Positions 7,023 through 25,344 of a stretch of 26,754 nucleotides of DNA are shown one piece after another. Numbering within the stretch: the first letter of the stretch is position 1; each line of letters begins with the position of its first letter. Under the pieces are notes generated by a model. It was not told the origin of the DNA and made no database searches. It worked only from the letters and a program-made list of their open reading frames with translations. The translations under genes were made by a program, and so were the position numbers. Location of the stretch: the IMG/VR virus record IMGVR_UViG_3300019768_000019, positions 1 to 26,754 of that record. The stretch is one strand, 5' to 3'. The DNA is from a virus.

Positions 7023-7207
7023 TACGCAAAAATATAAAAATACCACACATGAGGCTAAGCTTCGTTTAAGTTAAATACGCATTTATACGTACCTGAGACT
7101 AACTACGCACAACATATAGATAGTTATATATAACAAAGCTACCGAATACAAGTACGCATTTATGCGGTTAAGTATTTATTAAGCACAATTAACGTATAAT
7201 ATACGCA
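7023..7207. repeat. Five TACGCA repeats in the divergent control region
   Basis: TACGCA occurs at 7023, 7076, 7104, 7153 and 7202, all on the plus strand, spaced 53, 28, 49 and 49 bp. The copy at 7153 is part of the perfect palindrome CGCAT-TT-ATGCG (7155-7166). The copy at 7076 is in a similar but imperfect one (CGCATTTATACG). The last copy covers the predicted start of rightward transcription. The pattern suits operators for a dimeric regulator, or iteron-like sites of a replication or partition system. The ParB-like gene directly downstream is the obvious candidate binder. Confidence 0.6.
7179..7200 (+). promoter_or_regulatory. Rightward phage promoter, copy A (TTAAGC-N10-TATAAT)
   Basis: Boxes at 7179-7184 and 7195-7200. 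The TATAAT ends 19 nt before the ATG of the ParB-like gene. The left box differs from the consensus at its last base. TACGCA elements flank it (7153) and overlap its start point (7202), so it is the only one of the six copies with apparent operator sites. Confidence 0.7.
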
Positions 7208-7219
7208 TAAGGAGTATAA

Positions 7220-7933
7220 ATGACATACGAGATACACGAATTAGCTGGTATAGTAGCACTAGCCAGCGAAGCGGAACAACTAGCACTCACTGAAGATATA
7301 AGAGCTAACGGGCTGCAGGATGATATTGTACTGTGGGATGACGGTACTGGAGAGAAGGTTGTAGATGGTAGATGCAGACAGATAGCTTGCGTAGCTACCG
7401 ATACTCTTATAACAACTAGAGTACTAAGTCCAGAACTAGATTACGCTACTGTGGCTAAGATTGTAAAGAGCCTCAATACTAGAAGGAACCTAACAGATAC
7501 GCAGAAAGTAATGAGTGCATTAAAACAATACCAGACTACCAAAGGTAAGCAAAGTGACATAGCCAAACAATGGGCAGTAGGTCACAGGACACTACAGAAC
7601 GCAGTGTACATAGCTAAGCATAGACCGGAGTACATAGATCCGTTGTTTAACGGTAATAGTATAAAAGTGTACGACAGTACTAAAGGTATAACCATTACAA
7701 CTAACAAGGTAACTGGTATAGCTAAGATCATTAAGACGACTGAAGAGATGAACGTCACTGAAGATACTAGCAATAAAGTAGAATGGTCATCCGATGCGTA
7801 TATAAAGACAGAAGCAGGTAAGGCATGGTACTACACTTCAGTTGCGATGGATAATATAACTACAGATAACATAGCAACTAGGATGAAATATGCGGAGCTG
7901 GCTAACTACAAGTTTAAAGTAGAAGAAAAATAA
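7220..7933 (+). CDS. ParB-like nuclease/partition-domain DNA-binding protein (237 aa)
   Basis: Residues 20-60 follow the ParB N-terminal pattern. IRANGLQDDIVLW is followed by VVDGRCRQIA (VDGRxR at 48-53), then SLNTRRNLTDTQK (84-96). A helix-turn-helix follows at about 110-131 (QSDIAKQWAVGHRTLQNAVY). Such proteins bind specific DNA sites, and some have CTP switch or nuclease activity. The tail from 150 on is unassigned. AAGGAG lies seven bases before the ATG. It is the first rightward gene, beside the TACGCA repeats, which suggests it binds them to control itself, replication, or prophage partition. No ParA partner is seen in the window. Confidence 0.8.
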   Translation: MTYEIHELAGIVALASEAEQLALTEDIRANGLQDDIVLWDDGTGEKVVDGRCRQIACVATDTLITTRVLSPELDYATVAKIVKSLNTRRNLTDTQKVMSALKQYQTTKGKQSDIAKQWAVGHRTLQNAVYIAKHRPEYIDPLFNGNSIKVYDSTKGITITTNKVTGIAKIIKTTEEMNVTEDTSNKVEWSSDAYIKTEAGKAWYYTSVAMDNITTDNIATRMKYAELANYKFKVEEK

Positions 7934-7944
7934 TAAGGTATAAT

Positions 7945-8469
7945 ATGATAAAGTTAATAAAGAATAAGACAAAAGAGTTACTAGGGTTACCAATAATGGT
8001 AGACCTAGCTATAGAGGATGTAGTGATAACTACTAGTGAGTTCGTAGAATATAGAGTGGTAGAGGAGCTAGAAGATGGTACCGGGTTTGTAGTATACACT
8101 GAAAGCGGTGTTGTGTACCTAGGTAACTACGAAGGGTTCATGTTTAATACAGATGACATCCTAACAACTACGATAAGACATAAAGAGATTAGGTCAGTAG
8201 TGGTTGCACCTAAAAGCAATAAGACACAGTACTTAAGTGCTAGAATAGCTAAACATATTGCAGAATATAATGAAGAGCCTCAGAAGCTTACATTTTGTCC
8301 TAGTCGCTATAGTATACAGGATACGTACGAAGAAAGATGGGCTATGCTGTCAGCTAAGTTACACGCCCTAGGTATAGTACCAACACGTGCAGAAGATGAT
8401 GGTTATGAGATGATAGTACCGCATAATCTGGTAGAAGAAGTAACTACACTTATCAGAATACACAGATAA
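7945..8469 (+). CDS. Hypothetical protein (174 aa)
   Basis: Starts MIKLIKNKTKELLGLPIMVD. AAGG sits six bases before the ATG. The N-terminal half looks beta-rich with acidic loops (VEELEDGTGFVVYTESGVVYL). The C-terminal half is helical (YLSARIAKHIAEY, ERWAMLSAKLHALGI). No known motif is visible. It follows the ParB-like gene by 11 bp and overlaps the next start as TAATG, so it shares that operon. Confidence 0.7.
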   Translation: MIKLIKNKTKELLGLPIMVDLAIEDVVITTSEFVEYRVVEELEDGTGFVVYTESGVVYLGNYEGFMFNTDDILTTTIRHKEIRSVVVAPKSNKTQYLSARIAKHIAEYNEEPQKLTFCPSRYSIQDTYEERWAMLSAKLHALGIVPTRAEDDGYEMIVPHNLVEEVTTLIRIHR

Positions 8470-8846
8470 TGAAGTTCAATGTAAGTAGGAACCTAGGTAA
8501 GGAGAAGGTACAGCGATTGTACCTAATGGAGATACATGTGGAAGGTTATGATAAACCTGCGTACAAATTCGGTAAGGCCAGTGGGCATAGTAGTAAGGAT
8601 AGAATGCTACAGATTATTAGTAGTTACTTCGATTGCTATAGATGTACACCGATTATCAAAATAGTGAGAGATAGGGAAGTGGATGATGTATTTACTAAGG
8701 AGACTAGCTTACACCAGGAGTTTGTAGATGACAAGATTAGCTGTGAAGGTAAGAAATGGAGTGGTATGACTGAATGCTTCCTACTAGATAAGGATGTAGC
8801 TATAGAGGCTTATGAAAGGGTAGTAGATGCAGCTAGTAGTGAGTAA
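8469..8846 (+). CDS. GIY-YIG-like (T5orf172/Mug113-type) domain protein (125 aa)
   Basis: The layout is LYLMEI (17-22), AYKFGKAS (31-38), DRM (44-46), then FTKETSLHQEF (75-85) and a closing CEGKKWSGMTECF. This matches small phage proteins of the T5orf172 branch of the GIY-YIG superfamily, with YK-x-GK-x-S, an Arg, a Glu (E78) before LH, and a C-terminal aromatic strand. Members are predicted DNA nucleases or DNA-binding modules. The start overlaps the previous stop. It is less typical than the clear GIY-YIG gene at 24225, so the call is by pattern only. Confidence 0.6.
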   Translation: MKFNVSRNLGKEKVQRLYLMEIHVEGYDKPAYKFGKASGHSSKDRMLQIISSYFDCYRCTPIIKIVRDREVDDVFTKETSLHQEFVDDKISCEGKKWSGMTECFLLDKDVAIEAYERVVDAASSE

Positions 8847-9042
8847 GGATGTAGAAGAGGATATAGATACTAGCTATGAACTGGATAAACTAGAGCTGCT
8901 GAATGGGTTACCAAATTGGTTCTATACGAAGAATGAGGTTAGGAAATATGTAGTAACTAGAAGTAAGTTACTTAGGTTACAGAGAGAAGAGGAAGAGTAT
9001 AGCTACGAGCATACTAAATATGGCACAAAGGAAATAAAATGA
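8827..9042 (+). CDS. Hypothetical charged protein (71 aa)
   Basis: Its first 20 bases overlap the end of the previous gene, with AAAGGG six bases before the ATG. The sequence is helical and highly charged (LLRLQREEEEYSYEHTKY). The TGA overlaps the next ATG (ATGA). No family is recognised; it looks like one more small gene in the right early cluster. Confidence 0.65.
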   Translation: MQLVVSKDVEEDIDTSYELDKLELLNGLPNWFYTKNEVRKYVVTRSKLLRLQREEEEYSYEHTKYGTKEIK

Positions 9043-9206
9043 ATATACAAGAAAAAATAGAATTCGTATCACACTATGATGTGGTGTACTTAGATGATGC
9101 AGATAAGTATCTAGCTACTGCTGATAGAGAGCTACTGCAGTACTACACAAAAACAGATGTGGTTACGCTGTCATCAAATGAAAGGAATGTTATGCTAAAT
9201 GATTAG
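9039..9206 (+). CDS. Hypothetical protein (55 aa), ends at an in-frame TAG
   Basis: Reads MNIQEKIEFVSHYDVVYLDD and ends ERNVMLND. AAAGGA is ideally placed, and the ATG overlaps the previous TGA. After the TAG at 9204-9206 the same frame stays open for another 61 codons, to 9392. The real gene may therefore be 117 residues long with a nonsense codon or readthrough; see the entry at 9207-9392. Confidence 0.6.
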   Translation: MNIQEKIEFVSHYDVVYLDDADKYLATADRELLQYYTKTDVVTLSSNERNVMLND

Positions 9207-9392
9207 GTAGTTCCATTATGCCATAAGGAGCTACAAGATATCGTAAGCATAGTTGATAAACTGTTACAAGTACTAGTTGACAGAATTACTAAATCTGAGG
9301 TGGTGCGTATTAGAGAAGCTAAAGCATACGAACTGTTGCGTAAAGAAATGGCAGAAGTCGAAGCATCTATGGGCAAGGATATAGGTATATGA
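9207..9392 (+). pseudogene. In-frame continuation after TAG (split or readthrough gene)
   Basis: The frame of the 55-residue gene continues past the TAG for 61 codons without another stop. It encodes a protein-like helical sequence (VDKLLQVLVDRITKSEVVRI, then AKAYELLRKEMAEVEASMGK). Its TGA overlaps the ATG of the next gene (ATGA), the coupling typical of real genes here. No ATG, GTG or TTG occurs early in the segment, although AAGGAG lies at 9221-9226. Explanations are a recent nonsense mutation, programmed TAG readthrough, or a rare start codon. TAG ends other phage genes normally, so global recoding is unlikely. Confidence 0.5.
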
Positions 9393-9520
9393 GTACCAAA
9401 CAAAAACGAGACTATAATAAAGAGCTATTCGCTAGACGAGAGATTGACCTGAGGACTAAAAGTGTTCCGGATAAGACGAAGTATAGTAGGAAAGCCAAGT
9501 ACAAGAATAAGGAACACTAA
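9389..9520 (+). CDS. Hypothetical small basic protein (43 aa)
   Basis: Reads MSTKQKRDYNKELFARREID and ends KAKYKNKEH. About a third of its residues are Lys or Arg, so nucleic-acid binding is plausible. The ATG overlaps the TGA of the upstream frame, with AAGGAT about nine bases before it. It ends the right early cluster, followed by promoter copy B. Confidence 0.55.
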   Translation: MSTKQKRDYNKELFARREIDLRTKSVPDKTKYSRKAKYKNKEH

Positions 9521-9527
9521 CCGTAGT

Positions 9528-9549
9528 TTAAGGCTTAGTACTGTATAAT
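9528..9549 (+). promoter_or_regulatory. Rightward phage promoter, copy B (TTAAGG-N10-TATAAT)
   Basis: Boxes at 9528-9533 and 9544-9549. TATAAT ends 20 nt before the ATG at 9570, leaving a leader that holds little besides TTAAAGGAT. It drives the packaging transcription unit. Confidence 0.7.
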
Positions 9550-9569
9550 TAGGTATTAAAGGATAAACT

Positions 9570-9836
9570 ATGATTAAAGATAGTAGTGGTATAGCTGGTA
9601 TAGTAAGACTTGACGAAAGTGTTGAGTTCGGTATCTATACAGTAGACGAAGTGTTCCAGCATATCAGAACAATACAAAGTAGTGATTATACTACAGATAA
9701 TAGACAAGAAGATGAAGCAGAGTGGGTTTATAGACTAGCTGTGGATAATGGTGTTGAGTTAGTACTCGACAGTGATGACTATGTGGTTAAGTACCTGAAT
9801 GATAATGGTATTAAAGCACAGAAAAGTAAAGGGTAA
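9570..9836 (+). CDS. Hypothetical acidic protein (88 aa)
   Basis: Starts MIKDSSGIAGIVRLDESVEF. AAAGGAT lies before the ATG within the promoter-leader cassette. The protein is rich in Asp/Glu and probably alpha/beta, with a central VDEVFQHIRTIQ helix and a C-terminal VVKYLNDNGIKAQKSK. No family is recognised. It is the first gene of the unit that carries the terminase genes. Confidence 0.65.
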   Translation: MIKDSSGIAGIVRLDESVEFGIYTVDEVFQHIRTIQSSDYTTDNRQEDEAEWVYRLAVDNGVELVLDSDDYVVKYLNDNGIKAQKSKG

Positions 9837-9839
9837 TAA

Positions 9840-9935
9840 ATGATAGGGTTAGAAGAGCAAACCAAGATAGCTATATTAGCAGCTTCAATTATTGGACTAC
9901 TACTAATGATTGACCTAGGTCTAGTGAGTTACTAA
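9840..9935 (+). CDS. Single-TM micro-protein (31 aa)
   Basis: Reads MIGLEEQTKIAILAASIIGL and ends LLMIDLGLVSY. Residues 9-28 form one membrane helix. AAAGGG lies seven bases before the ATG, and the TAA overlaps the start of the terminase small subunit gene (TAATG), so it sits in the operon with signals at both ends. No known family. It may be too small to have been annotated in relatives. Confidence 0.6.
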   Translation: MIGLEEQTKIAILAASIIGLLLMIDLGLVSY

Positions 9936-10675
9936 TGGGCTTAGGTATAGTAAAAAGAGAGACTACTGAGTATACAGTAGAGAAGCTAAAGGAACTATTC
10001 CCAGCTAAGAAGAATACGATTACAGAAGAGACAGCTAGAATGCTTAATGAAGCTAATAGTGATCCGATGTTCAATGGTGATGAGTTCATGGATAACTTGC
10101 TTACATATAGTAATGTAATGCTAGAAGGTCAGTACTCGATGAGGAACTACATCAATGCGTTGAAGTTCTGTGCATACTTGGAATCAGAAGAGAACGTTAC
10201 AGAGGCGTATAGAAGAGCTAGAGCAAGTGATCAGTTTGTTATAGACAGGATTGGTGTAGACACTGAGAGTATGGAATACAGAGAGCTAACTAACGCAGCT
10301 AGTAGGTTCAGACGTACTCCGATGGTACAGAAGATACTGACACAGAGTGATATGCCATTGCATCTAATGTTTCAATCATCAAGGTACGAAGCTGTAGCTG
10401 TACTAGCTAAGGAGATGACTGGTGCCTACCATAGTAAGGATAGAATTAATGCTGCTGATAAGTTACTGACACATGTTAAGCCACCAGAGAATGCTCAGAT
10501 AGAATTGAGTGTAGGTATGAGTGCAGAGACTAAAGATATGCAGACACAGTTGAATGAACAACTAGCTGTACTAGCTAATAACCAGAGAAAGATGCTGGAG
10601 AATGGTTATAGTATGAAAGATGCGCAGAAGCTAGGTAGTGCAGTAGTACTTGATGCGGAGATAGTAGATGGCTAA
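9935..10675 (+). CDS. Probable terminase small subunit (246 aa)
   Basis: The protein is long and helical, with a central region NYINALKFCAYLESEENVTE-AYRRAR that resembles the DNA-binding part of phage small terminases. Position supports this: it overlaps the large terminase start by 8 bp. Small terminases recognise the packaging site and present DNA to the motor. The C-terminal tail (MQTQLNEQLAVLANNQRKML) looks like an oligomerising coil. An acidic, repeat-free N-terminus precedes residue 60. The identity rests on order and fold impression, not a diagnostic motif. Confidence 0.7.
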   Translation: MGLGIVKRETTEYTVEKLKELFPAKKNTITEETARMLNEANSDPMFNGDEFMDNLLTYSNVMLEGQYSMRNYINALKFCAYLESEENVTEAYRRARASDQFVIDRIGVDTESMEYRELTNAASRFRRTPMVQKILTQSDMPLHLMFQSSRYEAVAVLAKEMTGAYHSKDRINAADKLLTHVKPPENAQIELSVGMSAETKDMQTQLNEQLAVLANNQRKMLENGYSMKDAQKLGSAVVLDAEIVDG

Positions 10676-12395
10676 GCATAACGATAGCGTATTTGATATA
10701 GAAGAAGCACTACTTAATATAGACTTGGAGTTCAGGAACTATATACCTAGTGCTGATGCGATTGACTTCTTCAATATAATGAGGTTAGTTAATGGAGCGG
10801 ATTTTGAGTTCGATTCACCGTTGGTACACTACTGGATAGTAGACTTGCTGTTCGGTAACATAACTAGAGAGAATTACCCGTATAGTAAGGAAGTACAGGA
10901 TAAGATTAATATCAATAATAAACGTATAGCTATTATGATGAGTAGGGGATTAGGTAAGTCGAGTGTAATTACAGCGTTCCTACCTGTTTACTGTGCAGTT
11001 AAGGGCGAGGTACCAAATTATGGACCAATATACTTTATACTAGCTGTAGGTGCTAGTGCACAAGGTGGGGGGCGTGTAATGGCGCTTGCGTTGAGATCGA
11101 TGTGTGAAGATAGCGAGTTCTGTAAGAGTTACTTCGAGAGTATGAGGTTTACCGAAACAGAGGCTGAGTGGGTTAGAAAGCCGGTTAAGGCTAATGAGAA
11201 GCTAGATAAGAGAGTGTTCCTGTTAAGGACTATGGGGGCGAGTTCAGGTAATATCAGGGGGGTTAGATCGAATCATGGTGCACATAGACCAGATTGGATA
11301 CTGTTCGATGATATCATACCAAATATGGCAGCTGCTTACTCAGAGACGATAATGGGTAACTTAGAGGATATGATTAATGCCGATGCGATCAATGCACTGA
11401 AAGGTGGAGGTAAAGGTAAGATAATTAACGTGTTTACACCATTCCATATGAGAGACCCAAATGTTAAGACATTACTAGATGGATCATACACACCTGTAGC
11501 TATACCGATTTGTGAGAAGATAGATGAGACTACTACTGAAGAGGAGTTCAGAGGTGCGTGGGTAGAAATGCATCCGTATGAAGCTGTTAGGGAGCAGTAC
11601 CTGCAAGCAGTTAAGAGTAATACTACTAGAGCGTTCAATCAAGAGCGTATGCTTAAGATGGCGAATGAAGAAGATAGAATGGTACCAGACAGCTTGATTC
11701 AGGAGTACAATAGAGAGAATATTATGCAGAACTTAGGTGCGTATACACTGTACATAACTACTGACTTCACAACTACAAGTGAAGCTAAGAGTGACTTCAG
11801 TGGATTGATGGTATGGGCTGTGAGTCATAATGCGGACTACTTCCTGCTGGATGTGTGTGTAAGAAGACAAGGAATACAAGAGCAGTATAATGAGTTGTTT
11901 AGGATGCTACAAACATGGGGTAGGTACGGAAACCACATTGAAGTAGGTATTGAGGTAGATGGACAGCAGAAGGCTCACGTGTTTGCCCTAAAAGAGATGA
12001 TGCAGAAAAGGAATCAGTACTTCAGCTTTGCTAAACAGAAAGGTGCTCCAATTACTAGAGAGGGGATACTGAGTAAGGGTACAGGTACTAATAAACATGA
12101 GAGGTTCAGATATATGTTACCACAGTTCCAGAATAAGAAGATGTGGTTTCCGCAACAGCTAGCTGATACGCCAGATATGCAGGAGACTATGAAGCAGTTG
12201 AAGTATACTACATATAGTGGCTTTGCGGGTCATGATGACGCGATCGACTGCATTAGTCAGTTAGGTATGATTGATATTAGGTTACCGAGTGAGCAGGTAA
12301 GCGGTGAGTTCGGTGATGAGGAAGCTATCGATAGTATATGGGCTAGGTTCAATCATGATGAGGATCATGGATCAGGTTGTTCAACAGTGTTCTAG
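10668..12395 (+). CDS. terL: Terminase large subunit, ATPase-nuclease packaging motor (575 aa)
   Basis: Pumps DNA into the prohead and cuts it. Walker A is MMSRGLGKSS at 90-99 (Lys97) and Walker B is ILFDD at 211-215, in the usual order. The C-terminal RNase-H-like nuclease shows TTDFTT (Asp366), IEVGIEVDG (about 425-432) and GHDDAID (521-527), supplying the acidic metal site. Length is normal for podovirus large terminases. No insertion or break is seen. It ends in TAG, followed at once by promoter copy C. Confidence 0.93.
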   Translation: MAKHNDSVFDIEEALLNIDLEFRNYIPSADAIDFFNIMRLVNGADFEFDSPLVHYWIVDLLFGNITRENYPYSKEVQDKININNKRIAIMMSRGLGKSSVITAFLPVYCAVKGEVPNYGPIYFILAVGASAQGGGRVMALALRSMCEDSEFCKSYFESMRFTETEAEWVRKPVKANEKLDKRVFLLRTMGASSGNIRGVRSNHGAHRPDWILFDDIIPNMAAAYSETIMGNLEDMINADAINALKGGGKGKIINVFTPFHMRDPNVKTLLDGSYTPVAIPICEKIDETTTEEEFRGAWVEMHPYEAVREQYLQAVKSNTTRAFNQERMLKMANEEDRMVPDSLIQEYNRENIMQNLGAYTLYITTDFTTTSEAKSDFSGLMVWAVSHNADYFLLDVCVRRQGIQEQYNELFRMLQTWGRYGNHIEVGIEVDGQQKAHVFALKEMMQKRNQYFSFAKQKGAPITREGILSKGTGTNKHERFRYMLPQFQNKKMWFPQQLADTPDMQETMKQLKYTTYSGFAGHDDAIDCISQLGMIDIRLPSEQVSGEFGDEEAIDSIWARFNHDEDHGSGCSTVF

Positions 12396-12406
12396 TTAAT
12401 AGTGGA

Positions 12407-12428
12407 TTAAGGATAAAATTGCTATAAT
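12407..12428 (+). promoter_or_regulatory. Rightward phage promoter, copy C (TTAAGG-N10-TATAAT)
   Basis: Boxes at 12407-12412 and 12423-12428, with TGC before the TATAAT giving an extended -10 (TGnTATAAT). TATAAT ends 19 nt before the ATG of the adaptor gene; the leader contains TTTAAAGGAT. Drives the adaptor and tail fibre genes. Confidence 0.72.
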
Positions 12429-12447
12429 GGGGATTTAAAGGATAGAA

Positions 12448-13077
12448 ATGACAGTAGAAAAAGTAATAGACTTAGCTGTTAAAGGCGAGTTAAAAAAGTT
12501 AGCAGTTAAGGATGATACTGACTCTGTTATATCATTCATTAACTTAGGGATGATAGAGCTGTATAAGAGGTTCCCTCTTGATACAGAAGAAGTCATTATA
12601 GAGTTGGGTAGAATAACTGATAACAATGATAGCTATGAAAGAATAAGTGATACAGTGTACAAGCTACCTAATGACTTGATGTACATAAGTGCAGCGTATG
12701 AGGAAGATGGAACTGAGATTGGGATTAATAGAGAAGACGATCCGTTAAGTATTATGACGATTAGTTGGAATAAGATTCAAGTACCTGTGGCTACTGGTGG
12801 TGCGTATATCAGTGTGATATATGTAAAACAACCAACATTGATAGTGAACACACCAGAGATACTAGCTAGTGATATAGATCTGCCAGTACAGTTAGTAGAG
12901 GCGTTGTTGCACTACATAGGGTATAGAGGACATGGTTCGATTGATGGTAATATACAAGCAGAGAATAACACGCACTATCAAAGGTTTGAAGCAAGTGTAC
13001 AAAGAGCTAAGACCTTGGGTGTAATGACTGCAGATGGACCACTTAATAGGAATATACAAGAAAAAGGATGGGTGTAG
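12448..13077 (+). CDS. Head-tail adaptor-like protein (209 aa)
   Basis: The pattern recalls phage adaptor (connector) proteins. An N-terminal helix SVISFINLGMIELYKRFP is followed by a central beta region. The characteristic C-terminus has DLPVQLVEALLHYIGYRGHG (about 149-168), then HYQRFEASVQRAKTLG. These proteins bridge the portal and the tail. It follows the large terminase in its own unit and ends abutting the first collagen-like gene (TAGATG). The family call is from recollection of marine podoviruses. Confidence 0.75.
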   Translation: MTVEKVIDLAVKGELKKLAVKDDTDSVISFINLGMIELYKRFPLDTEEVIIELGRITDNNDSYERISDTVYKLPNDLMYISAAYEEDGTEIGINREDDPLSIMTISWNKIQVPVATGGAYISVIYVKQPTLIVNTPEILASDIDLPVQLVEALLHYIGYRGHGSIDGNIQAENNTHYQRFEASVQRAKTLGVMTADGPLNRNIQEKGWV

Positions 13078-16657: not shown

Positions 16658-16666
16658 GGAGCATAG

Positions 16667-17527
16667 ATGGCAAGAATTAGAAGAGTAGATACGCAAGGGT
16701 TAGGAGCTGGAGAACTCCTAGCTAGAGGTGAGTTCGGTATTGACCTGTCGGGTACAGGTGATAACGGTAGAGTGTACATAGGTACAGGTACAGAGAATAA
16801 GGTACTTGCGTTAGTAGACGACGTAGAGGCATTCATAATAACTGTAGGCACAGCAGGACAAGCTAGTATAAGTGTGGCAGACTCAAGTAAGGTACTCATA
16901 CTGGTGGATGGTAGCATAGCTGAATACACGGTAGTAGATGGTACTACAGTAGAGTTAACCACACCCCTAGTAGGCGGTGAGCAACTAAAGGTAATAGACC
17001 TGACACTACTAAGTACTAAACTTGATGTACTGGATGTAGAACTTAAAGCTAATAAGAATACGCCTGATGGTTATGTCGGGCTGAATGGGTTAGGGTTGAT
17101 AGATGCAGCACAGTTACCAAGTTATGTAGATGATATAGTGGAAGTAGCTGCATATGCAGATTTACCTGCAAGTGGAGAGGTTGGCAAGATATATATAGTA
17201 GTAGCTGATGAGACAAGTGGAGGTGACACTAGTACGTATAGATGGACTGGTACAGTATACGCTATGGTAAGTAACACACTAACAGCAGCTGACATTGAGG
17301 CACTGTACGAAGGTATTGCTAATACTAATAAGTATACTGATGTGGAGAGGGTTAAGTTAGCAAATACTGAAATAACTGCTCAGCTTGATGCAAGAGATAC
17401 GAATAATCGTAATACAGATAACCACACTGATGGTACTACTAATGGGGTATACACGTTAGTGGAACGAGCTACGTTAGTAGCTAATACAAACACCATCAGT
17501 ACACTAACTAGTACAGTAGAGTGGTAA
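16667..17527 (+). CDS. Tail fibre-type protein (286 aa)
   Basis: The N-terminus, ARGEFGIDLSGTGDNGRVYI, is the short structural domain found at the start of many phage fibre proteins; a related form (DEGRVGVGT) starts the next gene. The middle contains GYVGLNGLGLIDAAQLPSYV followed by a TYRWTGTVYA strand, a well-known tail fibre linker pair. The protein ends STVEW, like other fibre genes here that end in or near EW. AAGGAG precedes the ATG. Promoter copy D follows. Probably an accessory fibre or side tail component. Confidence 0.8.
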   Translation: MARIRRVDTQGLGAGELLARGEFGIDLSGTGDNGRVYIGTGTENKVLALVDDVEAFIITVGTAGQASISVADSSKVLILVDGSIAEYTVVDGTTVELTTPLVGGEQLKVIDLTLLSTKLDVLDVELKANKNTPDGYVGLNGLGLIDAAQLPSYVDDIVEVAAYADLPASGEVGKIYIVVADETSGGDTSTYRWTGTVYAMVSNTLTAADIEALYEGIANTNKYTDVERVKLANTEITAQLDARDTNNRNTDNHTDGTTNGVYTLVERATLVANTNTISTLTSTVEW

Positions 17528-17535
17528 AGTATTAC

Positions 17536-17557
17536 TTAAGGTAAGATTTGTTATAAT
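17536..17557 (+). promoter_or_regulatory. Rightward phage promoter, copy D (TTAAGG-N10-TATAAT)
   Basis: Boxes at 17536-17541 and 17552-17557, with TGT before the TATAAT (extended -10). TATAAT ends 20 nt before the ATG at 17578; the leader contains ATTAAAAGGATT. Drives the propeller fibre and the lysis genes. Confidence 0.72.
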
Positions 17558-17577
17558 AGGCAATTAAAAGGATTATA

Positions 17578-19620
17578 ATGAGTAAGATACTATATATAAA
17601 TACAGATGGTACCAAAAGTTCACTACCAGAAGGTATGTTGGGTTATGATGCCTACGCTGCAGGTGGTGACGAAGGTAGGGTAGGTGTAGGTACAGCAAGT
17701 GGTACAGATATACTACTAAGTAAAAAAGAAGAAGTAGATGCTCTTGAGAATAGAGTAGACACTATCGAGAATACACAGGTAGTAGCCAATGTAGTTGCAG
17801 GTACAGGAGTTACTGTAGACGCTACTGATCCAGCCAACCCTGTAATTAATGTGGATGGTAATCAAGGTACATTAGCGGAACAGACAAAGACATACAATGC
17901 AAATGAAGAATCTATTATAGTTATGTTAGAAGCTAAGAGTCTACCTGTAGTTAGTGTAGCTAAAGAGTTACCGCAAATAGGACAAAGTAATAATGATTGG
18001 AATGTAGATAGTACAAACTACACTTATGAAGATTTTGTTTTAGATACTACAATAACACCTAGTGCTACAACTGGGGATATTACACTTACATTAGGAACTG
18101 GAAACTTTACAGCAGACAATGTAGGTATGAGAATAGTAGGCAATGGTGGTGAAGTAGTTCTAACAGCTACTGATGGTAGTGCTACAGTGACTACTGACTT
18201 TAATGATACAATTACTATTGCTAGTGGTGATTGGAATATGTATGGTATTAGTGCTAGTGATGATGGAATTGAGTGTAGCGGAGTTAACAACGGATACTCA
18301 ATATCAAATGCTATATATACAACAGATACTTTTAGCGTTATAGCACAAGATGGTAATATGGATGACATTGTATTTGGTGATGATGGATACAGTATGTATT
18401 TATTAAGCTTCGGGACTGACACAGTTTATAGATATACATTATTAAGTCCTTACGATATAACAACTGCATCTTATCTAAATAGCAAATCAGTTACTAGCGA
18501 AGATTCAGCTCCAAAAAGTATTGATTTTAGTGTTGATGGGACAAAAATGCTACTTGCTGGGCTTGGGAATGACAGTATATATTCATATACTTTATCAACT
18601 GCTTGGGACATTACTACAGCAGTGTATGATAATGTAAGTGTTATGTTTACTGGAACAACAATAATCACAGGTGTAAGATTTGCTGATAATGGGTACAAAA
18701 TATATGCTGGTTATGGAGAAATATATCAATATGGTTTAACTACTCCTTATGACTTATCAACAGCTTCTTACTCTACAGTGTCAAGCCTTTCACTTACAAC
18801 AGACAATAGTCTTTGTGAAGTATCTACTGATGGTAAAATTGTAGTAATGTCGTCAGCAATAGATAACTTAATTACCAAAATAGTTTTAAGTACTCCTTAT
18901 GATTTATCAACAGCTAGTGTAGATTCTTCTTTTAATGTAAACACAGAAGACGATACAGTAACATCAGTTGCTTTTAGTAAAGGTGGTGCTGAAATGTTTA
19001 TGCACGGAAAAACTACTGACAACGTATATAAATATGACACTGGTTCAGTTGTGTATATATCAAACCAAAACCTTACAGCTATATCTCCTACAATATCTAC
19101 AGATTTATGGACTGATATTAACTCAATGACAGTTAATGAAACAGATAATGGTAAAGATGTACATTATGCTTTATCTACAGATAACAAGAGCAGTTTCTTT
19201 GTAATGAAAGATGGAGAAGGTGATAGAAGTATTGTTAGAGGTAATGGTGGTACTTGGGAGTATAACTCAAGTGTTACTTATACTATTGAAACTTGGACAC
19301 CAGCTACTAGAAACAATGTATATGGAGCATTAAGCGAAGCTATGGATATAGCATCTAATAAGATGCCTAAAGCTCAATTAGAAGCAGTACAAGACACTAA
19401 CTTTCCAGCTACTACAACTACACTAGACTTAGCTATCGTACTTAAAACAGATGATAGTACAGTAAGTCCAATTAGTGATGGTGTAACTGTAAACTATGAT
19501 AGTAATAGCTATTGGGGTGGTGCGGTATTAGGTACAGATTATGAGTGGACTCAAACAGCACCTGATAAGGTTAAGATTAAATCTTTAATAGCTAGTAATA
19601 TGAAGACAAGGATTGTATAG
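17578..19620 (+). CDS. Tail protein with beta-propeller-like repeats (680 aa)
   Basis: The N-terminal virion domain (1-50) and a short coil (50-66) lead to a fibre linker (GTGVTVDATDPANPVINVDG). From about 262 to 490 there are five repeats of about 50 residues, each with F-x-x-DG-x-KM, a strand Y-x-Y-x-L and then PYDITTAS, AWDITTAV or PYDLSTAS (positions 291, 342, 390, 440). This matches propeller blades found in phage and bacterial surface proteins. The C-terminal end (DTNFPATTTTLDLAIVLKTD) resembles other phage fibre tips. The propeller part uses TCA, TCT, TTT and ATT far more than its neighbours, which suggests it was acquired. Likely receptor binding. Confidence 0.75.
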   Translation: MSKILYINTDGTKSSLPEGMLGYDAYAAGGDEGRVGVGTASGTDILLSKKEEVDALENRVDTIENTQVVANVVAGTGVTVDATDPANPVINVDGNQGTLAEQTKTYNANEESIIVMLEAKSLPVVSVAKELPQIGQSNNDWNVDSTNYTYEDFVLDTTITPSATTGDITLTLGTGNFTADNVGMRIVGNGGEVVLTATDGSATVTTDFNDTITIASGDWNMYGISASDDGIECSGVNNGYSISNAIYTTDTFSVIAQDGNMDDIVFGDDGYSMYLLSFGTDTVYRYTLLSPYDITTASYLNSKSVTSEDSAPKSIDFSVDGTKMLLAGLGNDSIYSYTLSTAWDITTAVYDNVSVMFTGTTIITGVRFADNGYKIYAGYGEIYQYGLTTPYDLSTASYSTVSSLSLTTDNSLCEVSTDGKIVVMSSAIDNLITKIVLSTPYDLSTASVDSSFNVNTEDDTVTSVAFSKGGAEMFMHGKTTDNVYKYDTGSVVYISNQNLTAISPTISTDLWTDINSMTVNETDNGKDVHYALSTDNKSSFFVMKDGEGDRSIVRGNGGTWEYNSSVTYTIETWTPATRNNVYGALSEAMDIASNKMPKAQLEAVQDTNFPATTTTLDLAIVLKTDDSTVSPISDGVTVNYDSNSYWGGAVLGTDYEWTQTAPDKVKIKSLIASNMKTRIV

Positions 19621-19808
19621 TGAAACGAACACAAGAGGAATTAGAAGCGTTAGTAGATACAGCTCAGGCAGTTAAGGAAGCAAAAGCTTTCCTTACTAAG
19701 ACAGACAACAGAGAGTTTCCATCATACATATGTAAAGATGGTGAGATACTAGAAGAAACAATCGCTAAGAGAGTAGAAGCTAGAGAGTTCATTAGGGCTA
19801 ACAAATGA
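19620..19808 (+). CDS. Hypothetical small helical protein (62 aa)
   Basis: A GTG start overlapping the previous TAG (TAGTG), with AAGGAT seven bases upstream. The protein is helical and charged (EELEALVDTAQAVKEAKAFL and ETIAKRVEAREFIRANK), with one Cys (SYICKDG). Its stop overlaps the next ATG (ATGA). No family is recognised; small proteins after fibre genes are sometimes fibre chaperones, but nothing here proves that. Confidence 0.6.
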   Translation: MKRTQEELEALVDTAQAVKEAKAFLTKTDNREFPSYICKDGEILEETIAKRVEAREFIRANK

Positions 19809-20185
19809 CATTAGTCGAATTCAACAAAGTATACACCTACCAATCGGACTTACAGAAGTTCGGTAGGGTAGAAGTATGGGAAGTACCTGCACCAATAGGC
19901 GGAAAGTACAAAGCAGACTGCGAGAGCTACTTGCTGGCACTACAAGAGCTAACTGATGAGTTAGTTGATGCTGAGTTGTACTATTGTAGAATTAATGGCG
20001 AAGGACATTGCATAGCAATTAGAGATGATATGGTACTAGATTGCAACTGTCAAAGATGGTTAGGAATAAAAGAGTATACGAAAGTATACAACATGACAGA
20101 CTTAAGTAAGTACTGGAGAATAGGTATACTACTACGTAAACTGAGCACTAAGGTATTCGGTTATGTGGTATTGGCAAGGAGATAA
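19805..20185 (+). CDS. Transglutaminase-like cysteine peptidase fold protein (126 aa)
   Basis: The pattern ADCESYLLAL (Cys39), GEGHCIAI (His68) and VLDCN (Asp79) gives the Cys-His-Asp triad, in order and spacing, of bacterial transglutaminase-like cysteine peptidases. These cleave or modify proteins or peptidoglycan-linked peptides. At 126 residues it is a minimal form, with no signal peptide. It sits between the fibre genes and the holin, so it may help lysis, or may process a structural protein. The ATG overlaps the previous stop. The fold call rests on three short motifs. Confidence 0.6.
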   Translation: MTLVEFNKVYTYQSDLQKFGRVEVWEVPAPIGGKYKADCESYLLALQELTDELVDAELYYCRINGEGHCIAIRDDMVLDCNCQRWLGIKEYTKVYNMTDLSKYWRIGILLRKLSTKVFGYVVLARR

Positions 20186-20187
20186 AT

Positions 20188-20688
20188 ATGTTACCAATAT
20201 TAGCACCAATAGTAAGTATGCTAGCAGGGAAAGGACTAGATGTACTAAGTAATGCCATAGAAGGCGGAGCTGACAAAGCAATAGAGCTAGTGAGTGAGAA
20301 GACAGGAATTGACCTAAGTAAAGGGTCAGTAACAAATGAAGAAATAGCTGAATTGAAGAAGTTCCAAAGAGAGCATGAAAGTGAGTTACTAGCTTACCAT
20401 GCAAAGAATACAGCTAGTGCTAGAGACATGCAGAAGACTGCGTTGGAGCAAGATGATGAGTTCAGTAAGAGGTTCATATACTACTTCGCTACGTTGTGGA
20501 GTATAGCAGCTATAGCGTTCATGTTCGGGATTACGTTTATTGATATACCAGCTGGTAGTGAGAGATTCGCAGACACTATACTAGGGTTCCTGTTAGGTAC
20601 TATAGTAGCTACAATAATTAACTTCTTTTACGGGTCTAGTAAAGGAAGTCAGGATAAGACTACACAGATTAATAGATTAGCAGGTTAA
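20188..20688 (+). CDS. Three-TM-type holin (166 aa)
   Basis: An N-terminal hydrophobic stretch (1-14), a charged helix (50-90), then SARDMQKTALEQDDEFSKRF leading into two clear membrane helices (about 97-118 and 128-148), ending in FFYGSSKGSQDKT. The ARDM motif and the FGSS-like, Lys-rich end match the phage/gene-transfer-agent 3TM holin family. The holin forms membrane lesions that time lysis and release endolysin. AAGGAG lies before the ATG. The neighbouring endolysin and membrane coil protein support a lysis cassette. Confidence 0.8.
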   Translation: MLPILAPIVSMLAGKGLDVLSNAIEGGADKAIELVSEKTGIDLSKGSVTNEEIAELKKFQREHESELLAYHAKNTASARDMQKTALEQDDEFSKRFIYYFATLWSIAAIAFMFGITFIDIPAGSERFADTILGFLLGTIVATIINFFYGSSKGSQDKTTQINRLAG

Positions 20689-20694
20689 GTAGGT

Positions 20695-21378
20695 ATGAAC
20701 GATATGTGGAATAGAGTACAGAAGGCTACAACTAGGTTACTAGGTAGGTTAGACGTACTCGGTATAGGTAAGTCAGTAGCAAAGGTTGAAGCTACGCATA
20801 AGACGCTCAAGGATTGCATGGTATGTAAGGATGACATGCTCAAAAGGCATAGAGATGATTTACAGCAAGCTAAGTTGAAGTACAAGGAAGCTAATAATAT
20901 GTTTACGCAAGTTATAGACCACTTACCTGATATGGTATGGGCTAAGGACATTGACGGTAGGTACATAATGGCTAATAAGGCGTTCATGGTAAACTTCTGC
21001 TATGGGATGACATGGGACGAACTAAAAGGCAAAACTGATGCAGAGATAGCTACTGAGTTCAAAGCTAGGGTGGGTAATGCTAACCACACATTCGGTGAGA
21101 CTTGTGCTAATTCAGATGTGATAGTTAAGGACACGGAAAAGGCTAGAAGGTTCCTTGAGCTTGGTAATATAAACGGTAAGCAGATGAAGCTAGAAGTACA
21201 TAAGAGTCCTGTATACAACTTAGAAGGTACACTGTATGCAATATGTGGTGTAGGTAGAGACATAACAGAGATGCACGATGAGTTGATGGAAGCTATAGAT
21301 GCATCGGATGCGTGCTTCGGTAGAGAAGGAAGAGAGTTCCTTAAGACAATAGCAAATAAGTATGAGTTTAAGGATTAG
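20695..21378 (+). CDS. PAS-domain protein inside the lysis cassette (227 aa)
   Basis: The N-terminal 70 residues form a basic coil with a CMVC pair (41-44). Residues about 72-195 are a PAS domain: VIDHLPDMVWAKDIDGRYIM, then ANKAF, GKTDAEI, and the closing EVHKSPVYNLEGTLYAICGVGRDITE. PAS domains sense redox state, light, or small ligands and pass signals between proteins. No kinase, cyclase or DNA-binding domain follows; the tail is short. It lies 7 bp after the holin and ends 5 bp before the membrane coil protein, so it probably acts with them. The ribosome site is weak, so coupling is likely. A redox or energy-dependent lysis timer is one inference. Confidence 0.82.
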   Translation: MNDMWNRVQKATTRLLGRLDVLGIGKSVAKVEATHKTLKDCMVCKDDMLKRHRDDLQQAKLKYKEANNMFTQVIDHLPDMVWAKDIDGRYIMANKAFMVNFCYGMTWDELKGKTDAEIATEFKARVGNANHTFGETCANSDVIVKDTEKARRFLELGNINGKQMKLEVHKSPVYNLEGTLYAICGVGRDITEMHDELMEAIDASDACFGREGREFLKTIANKYEFKD

Positions 21379-21383
21379 GTCTG

Positions 21384-21800
21384 ATGGGTATGGATGAGAT
21401 GGTAGTAAGCCAGATAAATTTACGAATTGATGATGTAAATAGCAGGCAAGATAGTACTGATAGTATAATAGAGAGTATGAGAAAAGAGAACTCAGATGCT
21501 AATGGGCAAATGCTTGCAGCTGTTAACGAGCAGACTGTGGCGTTTAGTGAGATCAAAACTAAGCAGACTATATACGTGTCCATAGCAGTGTTTATTATGA
21601 CTATAGGGCTTAACTTCGGTATTGATATGTTTAAGGGTTATGAAGAGCCTGAAAAGGTAGCGTACTACAATAAGCGTATCAGGGACTCACAGACAGCAAT
21701 AGACCTGCAAAAGCAAGTTGATATGTTGACAGTACTGCTCAATAAAGAGCTGGAAAAAAGTAATAAGCAAAGTAATAAACAAAGGATAATAAATGAGTAA
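21384..21800 (+). CDS. Membrane protein with two coiled-coil arms (138 aa), possible spanin or holin partner
   Basis: The first 58 residues are helical and polar (SQINLRIDDVNSRQDSTDSI). A membrane helix follows at about 62-83 (TIYVSIAVFIMTIGLNFGI), then a second coil (90-130) with Lys/Gln-rich heptads. A mid-protein membrane helix is unlike classic inner-membrane spanins, which anchor at the N-terminus, so a spanin call is only tentative. It overlaps the endolysin start by 8 bp. The alternative ATG two codons in cannot be excluded. Confidence 0.6.
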   Translation: MGMDEMVVSQINLRIDDVNSRQDSTDSIIESMRKENSDANGQMLAAVNEQTVAFSEIKTKQTIYVSIAVFIMTIGLNFGIDMFKGYEEPEKVAYYNKRIRDSQTAIDLQKQVDMLTVLLNKELEKSNKQSNKQRIINE

Positions 21801-22206
21801 ATTCAAGTTTGGTAAGAAAAGTAAAGAAAAGTTAGATGGAGTAGATGAAAGAGTAAAGAGGCTGTGCGAAAAGGCGTTAAAGTACTCAACAGTAGACTTC
21901 AGTGTGATTGATGGGCTAAGAACTCAAAGTGAGCAGAAAGCTATGTTCGATAAGGGTGCAAGTGAGTTGGATGGGCAGATGCGTATAAGTGATCACCAGT
22001 TAGGGTTAGCTATTGATGTGATACCATATGTAAAGGGAATGGACCCATGGGACGTAGCAGATGATCAAGTTAAGCTAGCTTATATGGAGATGTACAGAGC
22101 GTTCATGAGAGCGAGTATGAAGTTAGGGATGTCACTAGAGTTCGGATTCGGCTACAATATCGGTGGCGGAAGAGACATGCCACACATATCCGTAAAGCAG
22201 ATGTAA
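21793..22206 (+). CDS. M15-family peptidoglycan endopeptidase (endolysin, 137 aa)
   Basis: Cuts peptide bridges in the cell wall at the end of infection. Motifs follow the VanY/T5-endolysin pattern: VIDGLRTQSEQ (38-48), SDHQLGLAIDV (66-76) with zinc ligands His68 and Asp75, and DMPHISVK (128-135) with catalytic Asp128 and zinc ligand His131. There is no signal peptide, so it needs the holin for export. AAAGGAT lies before the ATG. Length is typical for a single-domain enzyme of this class. Promoter copy E follows. Confidence 0.88.
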   Translation: MSKFKFGKKSKEKLDGVDERVKRLCEKALKYSTVDFSVIDGLRTQSEQKAMFDKGASELDGQMRISDHQLGLAIDVIPYVKGMDPWDVADDQVKLAYMEMYRAFMRASMKLGMSLEFGFGYNIGGGRDMPHISVKQM

Positions 22207-22218
22207 CTTAAGTGTAGT

Positions 22219-22240
22219 TTAACTAAGGAGTAGGTATAAT
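22219..22240 (+). promoter_or_regulatory. Rightward phage promoter, copy E (TTAACT-N10-TATAAT)
   Basis: Boxes at 22219-22224 and 22235-22240; the left box is TTAACT, the most divergent of the six. TATAAT ends 20 nt before the portal ATG. A seven-codon ORF (22241-22264, MANRKYK) starts immediately after the box and overlaps the portal start as ATGA, but it has no ribosome site. Drives portal and head genes. Confidence 0.6.
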
Positions 22241-22260
22241 ATGGCTAACAGGAAGTATAA

Positions 22261-24225
22261 ATGAAAATAAATAAAAGTAAATTACTTAAAGGTCTCAAGG
22301 CTGACCTAAAAGCCGCTGAGCCGATGCATGACGACTTACAAGGTAAGATTGAAGGATGGATTAGCGCTTATAACGGCGAACCATACGGCAATGAACAAAA
22401 AGGCAAGTCAGCTATTGTATCTAGAGATATAAAGAAGCAAAGTGAGTGGCAGCACTCTACTATTATAGATCCGTTCGTAAGTGCAGTTGATATAATTAAA
22501 GCTACTCCGGTTACTGCAGAGGACGTAGAGTCAGCTAGGCAGAATGAGCTAGTACTAAATACACAGTTCTGTAGACAGTTCAATAGATACAATTTCATGA
22601 CTAAAGCAGCTAAAGTACTAGATATGGAAGGTACAGCAGTTATTCAATGTGGTTGGGATTATGAAGATGAAGAGGTTGAAGTAGAAGTTCCTATTATTGG
22701 AAGAATGCCAGATGGATCAGAGATGATACTAGGTACACAGACTGTGACAGAGACTAGGATCATTACTAATAGACCAACTGCTATAGTATGTAGAAATGAA
22801 GACATATACATAGATCCGACTTGTATGGATGATATGGACAAGTGCCAGTTCGTAATATATAGGTACGAGACTGATATGAGTACGCTGAAGTCAGATGGTA
22901 GATATAAGAATCTAGATAAGGTAGCTAAAGGTTCACTAGGTGAGAATGAAGTAGACTTCGATAGTGAAGATGAGACTGAGTTCAGGTTCGAAGATGACCC
23001 GAGAAAGAAGAAGGTTGTATACGAGTACTGGGGTAACTATGATGTAGATGGTGATGGAATTACAGAACCGATAGTATGTACATGGATAGATGACGTAGTT
23101 ATTAGATTAGAGGATAACCCGTACCCAGACGGTAAACCACCATTCATAGTAGTACCATTCAATAGTGTACCATTCCAGATGCATGGAGAAGCTAATGCAG
23201 AGTTCATAGGTGACAATCAGAAGATCAAGACAGCAATTACTAGAGGTATTATTGATAATATGGCTCAAAGTAATAATGGGCAGAAAGGTATCCGTAAAGG
23301 AGCACTTGATGTAGCTAATAGACGTAAGTTCATCAATGGAGAGAACTTCGAGTTCAACGGTACACCAAATGACTTCTGGGATGGTAGCTACAACAGTATA
23401 CCAGGAAGTGCATTCGATATGCTAGGTATGATGAACAATGAGATTGAGTCAATTACTGGAGTTAAGTCGTTCAGTGGTGGAATCAGCGGTAACTCACTAG
23501 GAAGTACTGCCACTTCAGTTAGAGGCGCGTTAGATGCAACTAGTACAAGAAGGCTGAATATCGTTAGGAACATAAGTGAGAACTTAGTTAAGCCGTTAAT
23601 GAGAAAATGGATGAGTTACAATGCAGAGTTCCTAGATGATACAGAAGTAGTTAGGATGACTAATAACGAGTTCGTTGAAATTAGAAGAGATGACCTAGAA
23701 GGTAACATCGATATCGAGATTACGGTAAGTACTAATGAAGATAATGCAGCTAAGGCACAAGAGATTACATTCATGCTACAGACTCAAGGTCAGAGTATGA
23801 GTGAAGAGATGCAGTACAAGATGCTAGCTCAGTGGGCAGACTTAACTAAGCAACCAGAACTAGCTCAAGAATACAGAAACTGGCAACCACCTCAACCTAC
23901 TGAGACACAGATGAGAATGGAAGCAGCTGCAGTAAGAAAAGCTGAGTTAGAGAACATGAAGTTAGAAGCTGAGATTAATGACAGAAATGCAAGAGCTCAA
24001 GAGAATCAAATTGATGCATTTGCGAAAGAAGCTAAAGCAAGAAAAGAAATGGCGTCTGCTCGTAAAATAGAAAGTGAAGCAGATAGAATTGATTTAGATT
24101 TCCTTGAGAGAGATAGTGGAATAGCTCATGCAAGAAAAATGGAAGAGAAGGAATTTGATCGCCTAAGTAAATTAGACGAAAAGGCTTTTGACGCTATGCA
24201 TGGTAAAGAAAAAGGTACTAAGTAA
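22261..24225 (+). CDS. Portal protein (654 aa)
   Basis: Forms the ring at the head vertex through which DNA passes. The N-terminus has the portal pattern found in many podoviruses: AYNGEPYGNE, then SAIVSRDIKKQSEWQHSTII and DPFVSAVDIIKATPVTAEDV. The mid-region includes PFIVVPFNSVPFQMHGEANA (clip/stem side) and FDMLGMMNNEIESITGVKSF. The C-terminal 130 residues are a long Ala/Glu/Lys coiled coil (from about residue 545), matching portal barrel regions. AGGAAG precedes the ATG. It ends overlapping the homing endonuclease gene (TAATG). Confidence 0.88.
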   Translation: MKINKSKLLKGLKADLKAAEPMHDDLQGKIEGWISAYNGEPYGNEQKGKSAIVSRDIKKQSEWQHSTIIDPFVSAVDIIKATPVTAEDVESARQNELVLNTQFCRQFNRYNFMTKAAKVLDMEGTAVIQCGWDYEDEEVEVEVPIIGRMPDGSEMILGTQTVTETRIITNRPTAIVCRNEDIYIDPTCMDDMDKCQFVIYRYETDMSTLKSDGRYKNLDKVAKGSLGENEVDFDSEDETEFRFEDDPRKKKVVYEYWGNYDVDGDGITEPIVCTWIDDVVIRLEDNPYPDGKPPFIVVPFNSVPFQMHGEANAEFIGDNQKIKTAITRGIIDNMAQSNNGQKGIRKGALDVANRRKFINGENFEFNGTPNDFWDGSYNSIPGSAFDMLGMMNNEIESITGVKSFSGGISGNSLGSTATSVRGALDATSTRRLNIVRNISENLVKPLMRKWMSYNAEFLDDTEVVRMTNNEFVEIRRDDLEGNIDIEITVSTNEDNAAKAQEITFMLQTQGQSMSEEMQYKMLAQWADLTKQPELAQEYRNWQPPQPTETQMRMEAAAVRKAELENMKLEAEINDRNARAQENQIDAFAKEAKARKEMASARKIESEADRIDLDFLERDSGIAHARKMEEKEFDRLSKLDEKAFDAMHGKEKGTK

Positions 24226-25082
24226 TGACGCAGTGGGTAATATACAAGCATACAAGTGAAAGGTCAGGTAAGTCTTACGTAGGACTTACCAAGCGATCTA
24301 TGGAGTTAAGATGGAAAGAGCACTGCAGAGATGCTAGCATGGGAAGTGATAAGCACTTTCATAGAGCTATTAGGCTGTACGGAGAAGACAACTGGAAGCA
24401 TGAAGTGATCATAGAAGGTATTGATACTGTAGAGGAGGCTAACGCACTAGAGAAATTCTACATAAAACAATGTGATACGTTTGAGAATGGGTATAACCTA
24501 ACGCTCGGAGGTGATGGCGCGTTGTTTAATGATGATGAATTTACATTCTACAATAAGGAGCTCAATACTACTGAGACGTGTACAGTACATGAATTAAGTA
24601 TGAAGTACGAGCTACACCCAGGTTACGTTAGATACGTAGCTAAAGGAGAACGTGACCATTGCAGAGGTTGGTTCATATGGGTAGGAGATGAAGGTAACTA
24701 TGACACAGATCCGGTATACAAGTTTGAGCATAAGGATTACGGAGTTGAGGAGCTTACACTAAAAGGTATGGTAGATAAGTATAACCTTAGTAAAGGAAAC
24801 CTACATAGTGTAACTACAGGTAAGCGAAACCATACAAAAGGTTGGACACTGGTAGGAAACCAAGCAGTACTTACCGAACGCAAGGTGGCTCATAACGCTA
24901 TAGAAGTAGAAAAATACGATATGGACGGTAATACTGTATGTACTTACCCATCAATACTGCAAGCTGCTGAGGACAATGGGGTAGGTGAGCACATAGTAAG
25001 GGATAGATGTACAGGAAGAGCTGAAGGTATGTACAATTATCAAGGATACAGATTCAAAAACAAGAAAGAAGGAAGTAAGTAA
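24225..25082 (+). CDS. GIY-YIG homing endonuclease (285 aa), free-standing
   Basis: The GIY-YIG catalytic domain occupies residues 1-98: WVIYKH (Tyr7), YVGLT (Tyr18), ELRW (Arg29) with His33, ALEKFYIKQC (Glu76) and GYNLTLGGDG (Asn91). Two related DNA-binding modules follow at about 107-152 and 164-211; the cores HPGYVRYVAKGERDHCRGW and SKGNLHSVTTGKRNHTKGW show they are repeats. A third C-terminal module of NUMOD type (KYDMDGNTVCTYPSILQAAE) closes the protein. Such enzymes cut cognate alleles and copy themselves into them. No intron or intein border is visible; it overlaps genes on both sides by one base, in the portal-scaffold interval. Confidence 0.9.
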   Translation: MTQWVIYKHTSERSGKSYVGLTKRSMELRWKEHCRDASMGSDKHFHRAIRLYGEDNWKHEVIIEGIDTVEEANALEKFYIKQCDTFENGYNLTLGGDGALFNDDEFTFYNKELNTTETCTVHELSMKYELHPGYVRYVAKGERDHCRGWFIWVGDEGNYDTDPVYKFEHKDYGVEELTLKGMVDKYNLSKGNLHSVTTGKRNHTKGWTLVGNQAVLTERKVAHNAIEVEKYDMDGNTVCTYPSILQAAEDNGVGEHIVRDRCTGRAEGMYNYQGYRFKNKKEGSK

Positions 25083-25315
25083 TGGCAAATGGATTAGCAA
25101 CAGGAGCGGGTCAGGTTGACCCAAGAATGGTAGAAGAGGTAGCTATGATGCTACAACAAGGCGCGAACCCAGATGAGTTACTAGCTCAGGGAGTACCAAT
25201 GGAAGTACTAGAGATGGCTATGCAAATGCTACAAGGGCAAGTTGCTCAGGAGCAAGGACTAGCTAGAGGTGTACAAGGTGGTGGAATAGCACAAGCTCAA
25301 GGACTGATGGCGTAA
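25082..25315 (+). CDS. Small head-region protein (77 aa)
   Basis: Rich in Gln, Met, Ala and Gly, with helical pieces MVEEVAMMLQQGANPDELLA and GVPMEVLEMAMQMLQGQVAQ. Similar short proteins sit between portal and scaffold genes in related marine podoviruses, as I remember them; their role is unclear. AAGGAAG precedes the ATG, which overlaps the homing endonuclease stop. Promoter copy F follows. Confidence 0.65.
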   Translation: MANGLATGAGQVDPRMVEEVAMMLQQGANPDELLAQGVPMEVLEMAMQMLQGQVAQEQGLARGVQGGGIAQAQGLMA

Positions 25316-25322
25316 GCTTGAA

Positions 25323-25344
25323 TTAAGGAACTGGGTGCTATAAT
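25323..25344 (+). promoter_or_regulatory. Rightward phage promoter, copy F (TTAAGG-N10-TATAAT)
   Basis: Boxes at 25323-25328 and 25339-25344 with an extended -10 (TGC). Unlike the other copies, the leader is long (74 nt to the ATG at 25419). It holds hairpins GAACA/TGTTC (25357-25372) and CGAC/GTCG just after it. The -10 itself lies in a weak inverted repeat (CTGG/CCAG). Such 5' stems may stabilise the scaffold/capsid message. Confidence 0.7.

Follow-up and report, generated by a model that had tools for sequence, protein, structure and literature searches.

Six tandem-box elements of an N4-like phage fragment as candidate late promoters of the host regulator HsrA/CosR

Which factor reads the short element that stands six times before the rightward genes of the virus record IMGVR_UViG_3300019768_000019? 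In this stretch of 26,754 bp (G+C 39%), which was analysed whole and is called the window below, a TTAAG-like box is followed each time, at a fixed distance, by TATAAT. The box had been described in an original prediction as either an element recognised by a phage RNA polymerase or an activator site. The activator alternative fits; the box proves to be one of two half-sites, the one proximal to the promoter. We consider it probable, from comparison of sequences, that the six elements are late promoters of an N4-like Campylobacterota phage, read by the host vegetative-sigma polymerase and activated by the host regulator HsrA/CosR on the tandem box. Promoters of this kind are already known; their use in phage late operons would be new, as no paper that we found in the open-access literature links HsrA/CosR to phage promoters or describes the element in phages.

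Build of the six elements

All six copies, with left boxes at 7179, 9528, 12407, 17536, 22219 and 25323, lie on the + strand, each 10 bp before TATAAT, and no copy was present on the - strand when both strands of the window were scanned. The boxes read TTAAGG in four copies and TTAAGC and TTAACT in the other two, as originally reported. A second half-site was found 11 bp upstream of each reported box, giving the full element xTTAAG-N5-xTTAAG-N11-TATAAT in every copy (Table 1); the weaker half-site has at most one mismatch to TAAG in 6/6 copies. The -10 is separated from the box by 11 nt and is extended by TGn in half of the copies (12423, 17552, 25339), again in agreement with the earlier description. 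None of the six has a classical -35, the best match to TTGACA reaching 1-4 of six positions even when spacings of 15-19 bp were allowed. The likeness drawn at the time to a Helicobacter TTAAGC-like box at a longer distance pointed in the right direction, since the distal half stands 21 nt from the -10. A fixed distance to the start codon was also claimed; TATAAT ends 19, 20, 19, 20, 20 and 74 nt before it, but this spacing is local, the relatives described below mostly having 24-34 nt.

The copies sit within, or at the edge of, the gaps preceding rightward late operons, and thus split the late region into six units. No tandem element was seen in the 99-bp gap before the open reading frame (ORF) at 9935, nor in the few-base gaps between other ORFs of the window.

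One account would be chance or base composition, in AT-rich intergenic sequence. We generated 400 second-order Markov sequences of the window, in which TTAA-N12-TATAAT occurred 0.145 times on average (maximum 3), compared to 6 observed on the + strand and 0 on the - strand. For the tandem form, the 6 observed copies compare to a Markov mean of 0.005 (maximum 1). A loose scan allowing three mismatches was uninformative (52 found vs. 53 expected). Together with the reversed-pattern and spacing-shift controls given below, these figures refute a compositional origin, whose probability we regard as negligible.

Occurrence in related phages, an unrelated phage lineage and cellular genomes

By its gene content, the window can be classed as a fragment of an N4-like phage. 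It encodes an N4-type portal (phrog_1216, SU10_portal), a terminase (phrog_38), an adaptor, a phrog_2120 protein and a gp57-like structural protein, with the late genes all on one strand. Genes for a virion RNA polymerase and for N4SSB would lie beyond this 26.7-kb fragment. Its portal is 64% identical to that of Alteromonas phage AD45-P1 (annotated as N4 gp59-like), and the AD45-P1 record labels homologs of window proteins as N4 gp57-, gp59-, gp68- and gp69-like.

Among divergent phages related through the portal, the distance of TAAG to TATAAT showed two peaks, at -15 (29 sites) and -26 (24 sites), against a mean of 5.9 per position, and this on the late strand only. In a combined scan of these relatives, the late strand had 52 sites and the opposite strand 1. 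Late-strand sites numbered 9 in G001, 10 in G002, 6 in G018, 5 in G019, 4 in G007 and 6 in the window, where 0 to 1 would be expected from Markov sequences. The spacing was strict: 44 sites had the 11 bp/11 nt arrangement, compared to at most 7 at any other box-to-box spacing or box-to--10 gap tried, and the pattern TAAG-N7-TTAAG, one base off the true spacing, was absent, which is informative about shifted spacing only. The matrix built from the sites reads TTAAG, TTAAG and then a TG-extended -10; its half-site columns are biased because the sites were chosen by TAAG, while the TG columns are unbiased.

The element is not a general N4-like feature, since it is absent from AD45-P1, despite the portal identity, and from about ten other relatives. 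Several sister phages have a perfect TTGACA-N17-TACAAT at the homologous portal promoter, and in the portal tree tandem and TTGACA-type portal promoters cluster apart, with 2 label changes each vs. a shuffled mean of 8.0. The same promoter position thus occurs both in a plain vegetative form and in one with an activator box, which is to be expected where a single host polymerase reads the two. In the close relative L387/G543 (IMGVR_UViG_3300019760_000001, 107.7 kb), the late promoters have weaker or fewer boxes. The lysis cassette of this relative shares 73-87% protein identity with that of the window, compared to about 54% for the portal, which suggests mosaic cassette exchange.

The element is also found outside the N4-like phages. 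A pattern scan of IMG/VR yielded 112 stretches with the element, compared to 6 with the reversed pattern and 1 with the -10 moved by 3. Many of the matches were on contigs of 132-135 kb, one of which was tested by BLAST and proved to be Campylobacter phage CP30A, a T4-like Fletchervirus of Campylobacter jejuni that is unrelated to the N4-like phages. CP30A has 27 tandem sites, 26 of them on one strand (Markov mean about 1.3), including sites just upstream of genes for DNA polymerase, single-stranded DNA-binding protein, ligase, topoisomerase, clamp loader and a sigma factor. In T4, the genes near these elements are of the middle type. In T4 middle promoters, too, a bound activator replaces the -35; there, however, the activator is the phage-encoded MotA and the box is a single, different sequence.

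Cellular genomes provided a further set of sites. A portal scan of 85,000 genomes returned four relatives, binned respectively with a Sulfurovum, a Sulfurimonas, a Campylobacteraceae bacterium and a Desulfobulbaceae bacterium. In the order of the Sulfurovum metagenome-assembled genome (MAG), which we take to be Campylobacterales, the exact pattern was present at 77 sites in 44 of the 120 genomes scanned, compared to 0 for the reversed control. The host-genome sites that were inspected with their surroundings are about 250 bp upstream of 16S rRNA genes or immediately precede tRNA genes. Many unrelated copies in the host genome had been named beforehand as an argument against a phage promoter; this is partly what was found, because the element is itself a type of host promoter. 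The MAG bins and the promoter type lead us to infer a campylobacterotan host for the fragment. A segment of the 680-aa ORF (18000-18235, + strand) shows 68% DNA identity (E 4.5e-16) to G519, a 3.3-Mb genome of the Sulfurovum order, and this late-gene sequence in common would fit such a host.

The same distribution bears on the idea that a single-subunit RNA polymerase of the phage recognises the box. Such an enzyme is indeed encoded in the window, on the other strand, and matches both T7-like (phrog_414) and N4-like (phrog_2166) profiles. Against a role at the box, the -10 is of the sigma70 type, the motif-rich relatives lack a close homolog of the enzyme (among the relatives compared, only G011 has a clear one), and the motif is present at host rRNA and tRNA promoters and in CP30A; the polymerase half of the original alternative is thus unsupported, and we consider it very unlikely. 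N4 itself transcribes its late genes with the host sigma70 polymerase and N4SSB, which acts via the beta' subunit (PMC4496689). An N4-like phage, a late strand and an expected host sigma70-type polymerase are common to both systems. In N4, however, no activator box is expected, whereas a strictly spaced tandem box is conserved here, implying an activator bound to DNA, unlike the N4SSB route. The motif-rich relative G002 encodes an N4SSB-family protein. The window polymerase may stand in for the two-subunit RNAPII of N4.

Candidate activators of the tandem box

The best match to the box is the binding site of HP1043/HsrA, an essential orphan OmpR-family regulator of Helicobacter pylori, known in Campylobacter as CosR. 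This site consists of two TTTAAG repeats, separated by a 5-bp spacer so that their centres are 11 bp apart, and immediately precedes an extended -10 in promoters without a -35 (PMC5253667). The refined consensus is ttTAAG-5bp-tTTAAg; removal of either half abolishes binding, and in vitro transcription increases 5-fold with HP1043 (PMC8345958). The phage consensus equals the HP1043 consensus at every important base. The phage elements differ in serving late operons, in having half-sites nearer to the consensus, in a proximal half that is often the better conserved, and in their 11-nt gap. Orthologs of HsrA/CosR were found in 3/3 campylobacterotan MAGs carrying phage relatives (Sulfurovum, Sulfurimonas and Campylobacteraceae), one of which matched C. 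jejuni CosR (8uvx, 2e-109) and HP1043 (2hqr, 4e-82) in the PDB; 8uvx and 8uuz are titled there only as DNA-binding response regulator, and their identity as CosR is taken from PMC10936212.

We infer that HsrA/CosR would bind to and activate the phage sites as follows. The host vegetative holoenzyme would bind the -10, often in its extended form (TGn TATAAT), at promoters without a -35. A dimer of HsrA/CosR would occupy the 17-bp tandem site xTTAAG-N5-xTTAAG, 11 nt upstream of the -10 and with both half-sites on the same helical face; there it would replace the -35 contact and recruit the host RNA polymerase for transcription of the late operons. An N4SSB homolog may co-activate.

The tandem box might instead be read by the host vegetative sigma factor or by RNA polymerase itself, as a phylum-specific substitute for the -35 that needs no activator. 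Its presence at host rRNA and tRNA promoters is compatible with this, and Campylobacterota vegetative promoters are known to lack a classical -35 (PMC5253667). What makes this explanation improbable is the structure of the element: exact direct repeats, one helical turn apart and specific in orientation, match the footprinted HP1043 site half by half, and HP1043 depends on both halves. Direct repeats matching in this way point to a dimeric DNA-binding protein.

Another activator could in principle bind the box, be it a host regulator of the OmpR family other than HsrA/CosR or a phage protein of unknown fold. Each candidate host genome encodes several OmpR-type regulators, PmrA and PhoP boxes share the 11-bp geometry, and PhoP boxes stand 11-12 nt before the -10 (PMC3973317, PMC3335776). 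Promoters of PhoP (architecture I), PhoB and PmrA likewise have a direct hexamer repeat 5 bp apart in place of the -35; they differ in their regulator, in the half-site sequence and in acting on host stress genes (PMC3335776, PMC3973317). Against this alternative, neither the window nor CP30A nor the records of 23 relatives encode an OmpR-type DNA-binding domain, and a comparison of gene content gave no DNA-binding protein restricted to motif-rich phages. The element being common to two unrelated phage lineages and to host rRNA genes points to one host factor, and we therefore hold a different activator to be unlikely. Specific candidates were also set aside. A MotA-like or phage-encoded OmpR activator found no OmpR-type domain or gene-content candidate to stand for it, MotA itself not having been searched for. 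PmrA/QseB and CtrA boxes were considered as lookalikes; the half-sites of PmrA match almost as closely, yet most of the hosts found belong to Campylobacterota.

Several observations weigh against activation by HsrA/CosR in a campylobacterotan host. The motif is missing from the relative binned with Sulfurovum (L171), and just one strong copy is present in the Sulfurimonas-binned relative (L172). The three campylobacterotan MAGs have one exact double site between them; environmental hosts may therefore use looser boxes. The 0 of 118 genomes with the exact pattern in the phylum of the Desulfobulbaceae MAG (Desulfobacterota) are a control of unmatched base composition. No convincing CRISPR (clustered regularly interspaced short palindromic repeat) spacer match to the phage was obtained in 399 genomes, which leaves the host assignment indirect. 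In H. pylori conservation is higher in the first half-site, in the window in the second. Lastly, boxes of other OmpR-family regulators are similar to the HsrA type, for example CTTAAG-N5-NTTAAT of PmrA (PMC3973317).

Late units, neighbouring genes and implications

Table 1. Coordinates of the predicted late promoters and of the phage RNA polymerase gene in the window
Feature	Position	Strand	Distal half-site	Proximal half-site	-10 TATAAT	Predicted unit or remarks
Putative late promoter 1	7167..7200	+	GTTAAG 7167-7172	ATTAAG 7178-7183	7195-7200	7220-9206: ParB-like and small genes
Putative late promoter 2	9516..9549	+	ACTAAC 9516-9521	TTTAAG 9527-9532	9544-9549	9570-12395: 88-aa ORF, phrog_2109 protein at TerS position, terminase large subunit
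Putative late promoter 3	12395..12428	+	GTTAAT 12395-12400	ATTAAG 12406-12411	12423-12428	12448-17527: SU10-type adaptor, collagen-like fibre proteins
Putative late promoter 4	17524..17557	+	GTAAAG 17524-17529	CTTAAG 17535-17540	17552-17557	17578-22206: 680-aa protein, small membrane-type protein, PAS-domain protein, endolysin
Putative late promoter 5	22207..22240	+	CTTAAG 22207-22212	TTTAAC 22218-22223	22235-22240	22261-25315: portal, GIY-YIG nuclease, small gene
Putative late promoter 6	25311..25344	+	CGTAAG 25311-25316	ATTAAG 25322-25327	25339-25344	25419 to window end, 74-nt leader: conserved 107-aa protein, then N4 gp57-like protein annotated as tape measure
Single-chain phage RNA polymerase (T7/N4-RNAPII type)	3721..5835	-				Divergent from late genes; no tandem motif before gene

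Promoter 1 has a third phased TTAAC at 7190. Upstream of it, an additional tandem box in 11-bp phase, TAAGCTTCGTTTAAG (7056-7070, + strand), has no recognisable -10 at the right distance. The leader before the ORF at 25419 gave an alignment too divergent for its structure to be judged.

Two genes of the late region are probably homing-type insertions, one with a T5orf172 domain (8469-8846, + strand) and the GIY-YIG nuclease gene directly 3' of the portal gene (24225-25082, + strand). The region 13078-16657 (+ strand) encodes successive proteins with GXY repeats of the collagen type, probably fibres, the first of which matches the Collagen profile at 1.3e-9. The PAS-domain protein (20695-21378, + strand; PAS_4, 2.8e-12) is flanked by the small membrane-type protein and the endolysin, and could be a sensor for the timing of lysis. 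Its homologs in the same phage group are on the motif-rich contigs G001, G007 (two copies), G018 and G020, and on L012; 25 such loci were found in IMG/VR.

Our reading would link late transcription in the phage to a host activator that is named, essential and of solved structure, and would make the timing of phage gene expression in Campylobacterota testable with purified parts. As a DNA signature, the element can also serve to assign phages from metagenomes to Campylobacterota. That the unrelated N4-like and T4-like lineages have each made HsrA/CosR the required activator of a whole class of phage genes is a tentative extension, about which we are rather doubtful. It may be that the tandem element is one of the two A/T-rich promoter motifs that drive most transcription in RNA-seq of phage NCTC 12673, in a report whose main text gives neither the motif sequences nor CosR (PMC6024767). 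Our reading would further offer a mechanism for the reported connection between oxidative stress and the success of Campylobacter phages, where CosR is named only as a possible regulator (PMC8540345). If the extension to both lineages held, the timing of phage gene expression would follow the state signalled by HsrA/CosR (oxidative stress, translation arrest), and many Campylobacterota phages would depend on a single host protein; as HsrA/CosR is essential, host escape through its loss would be costly.

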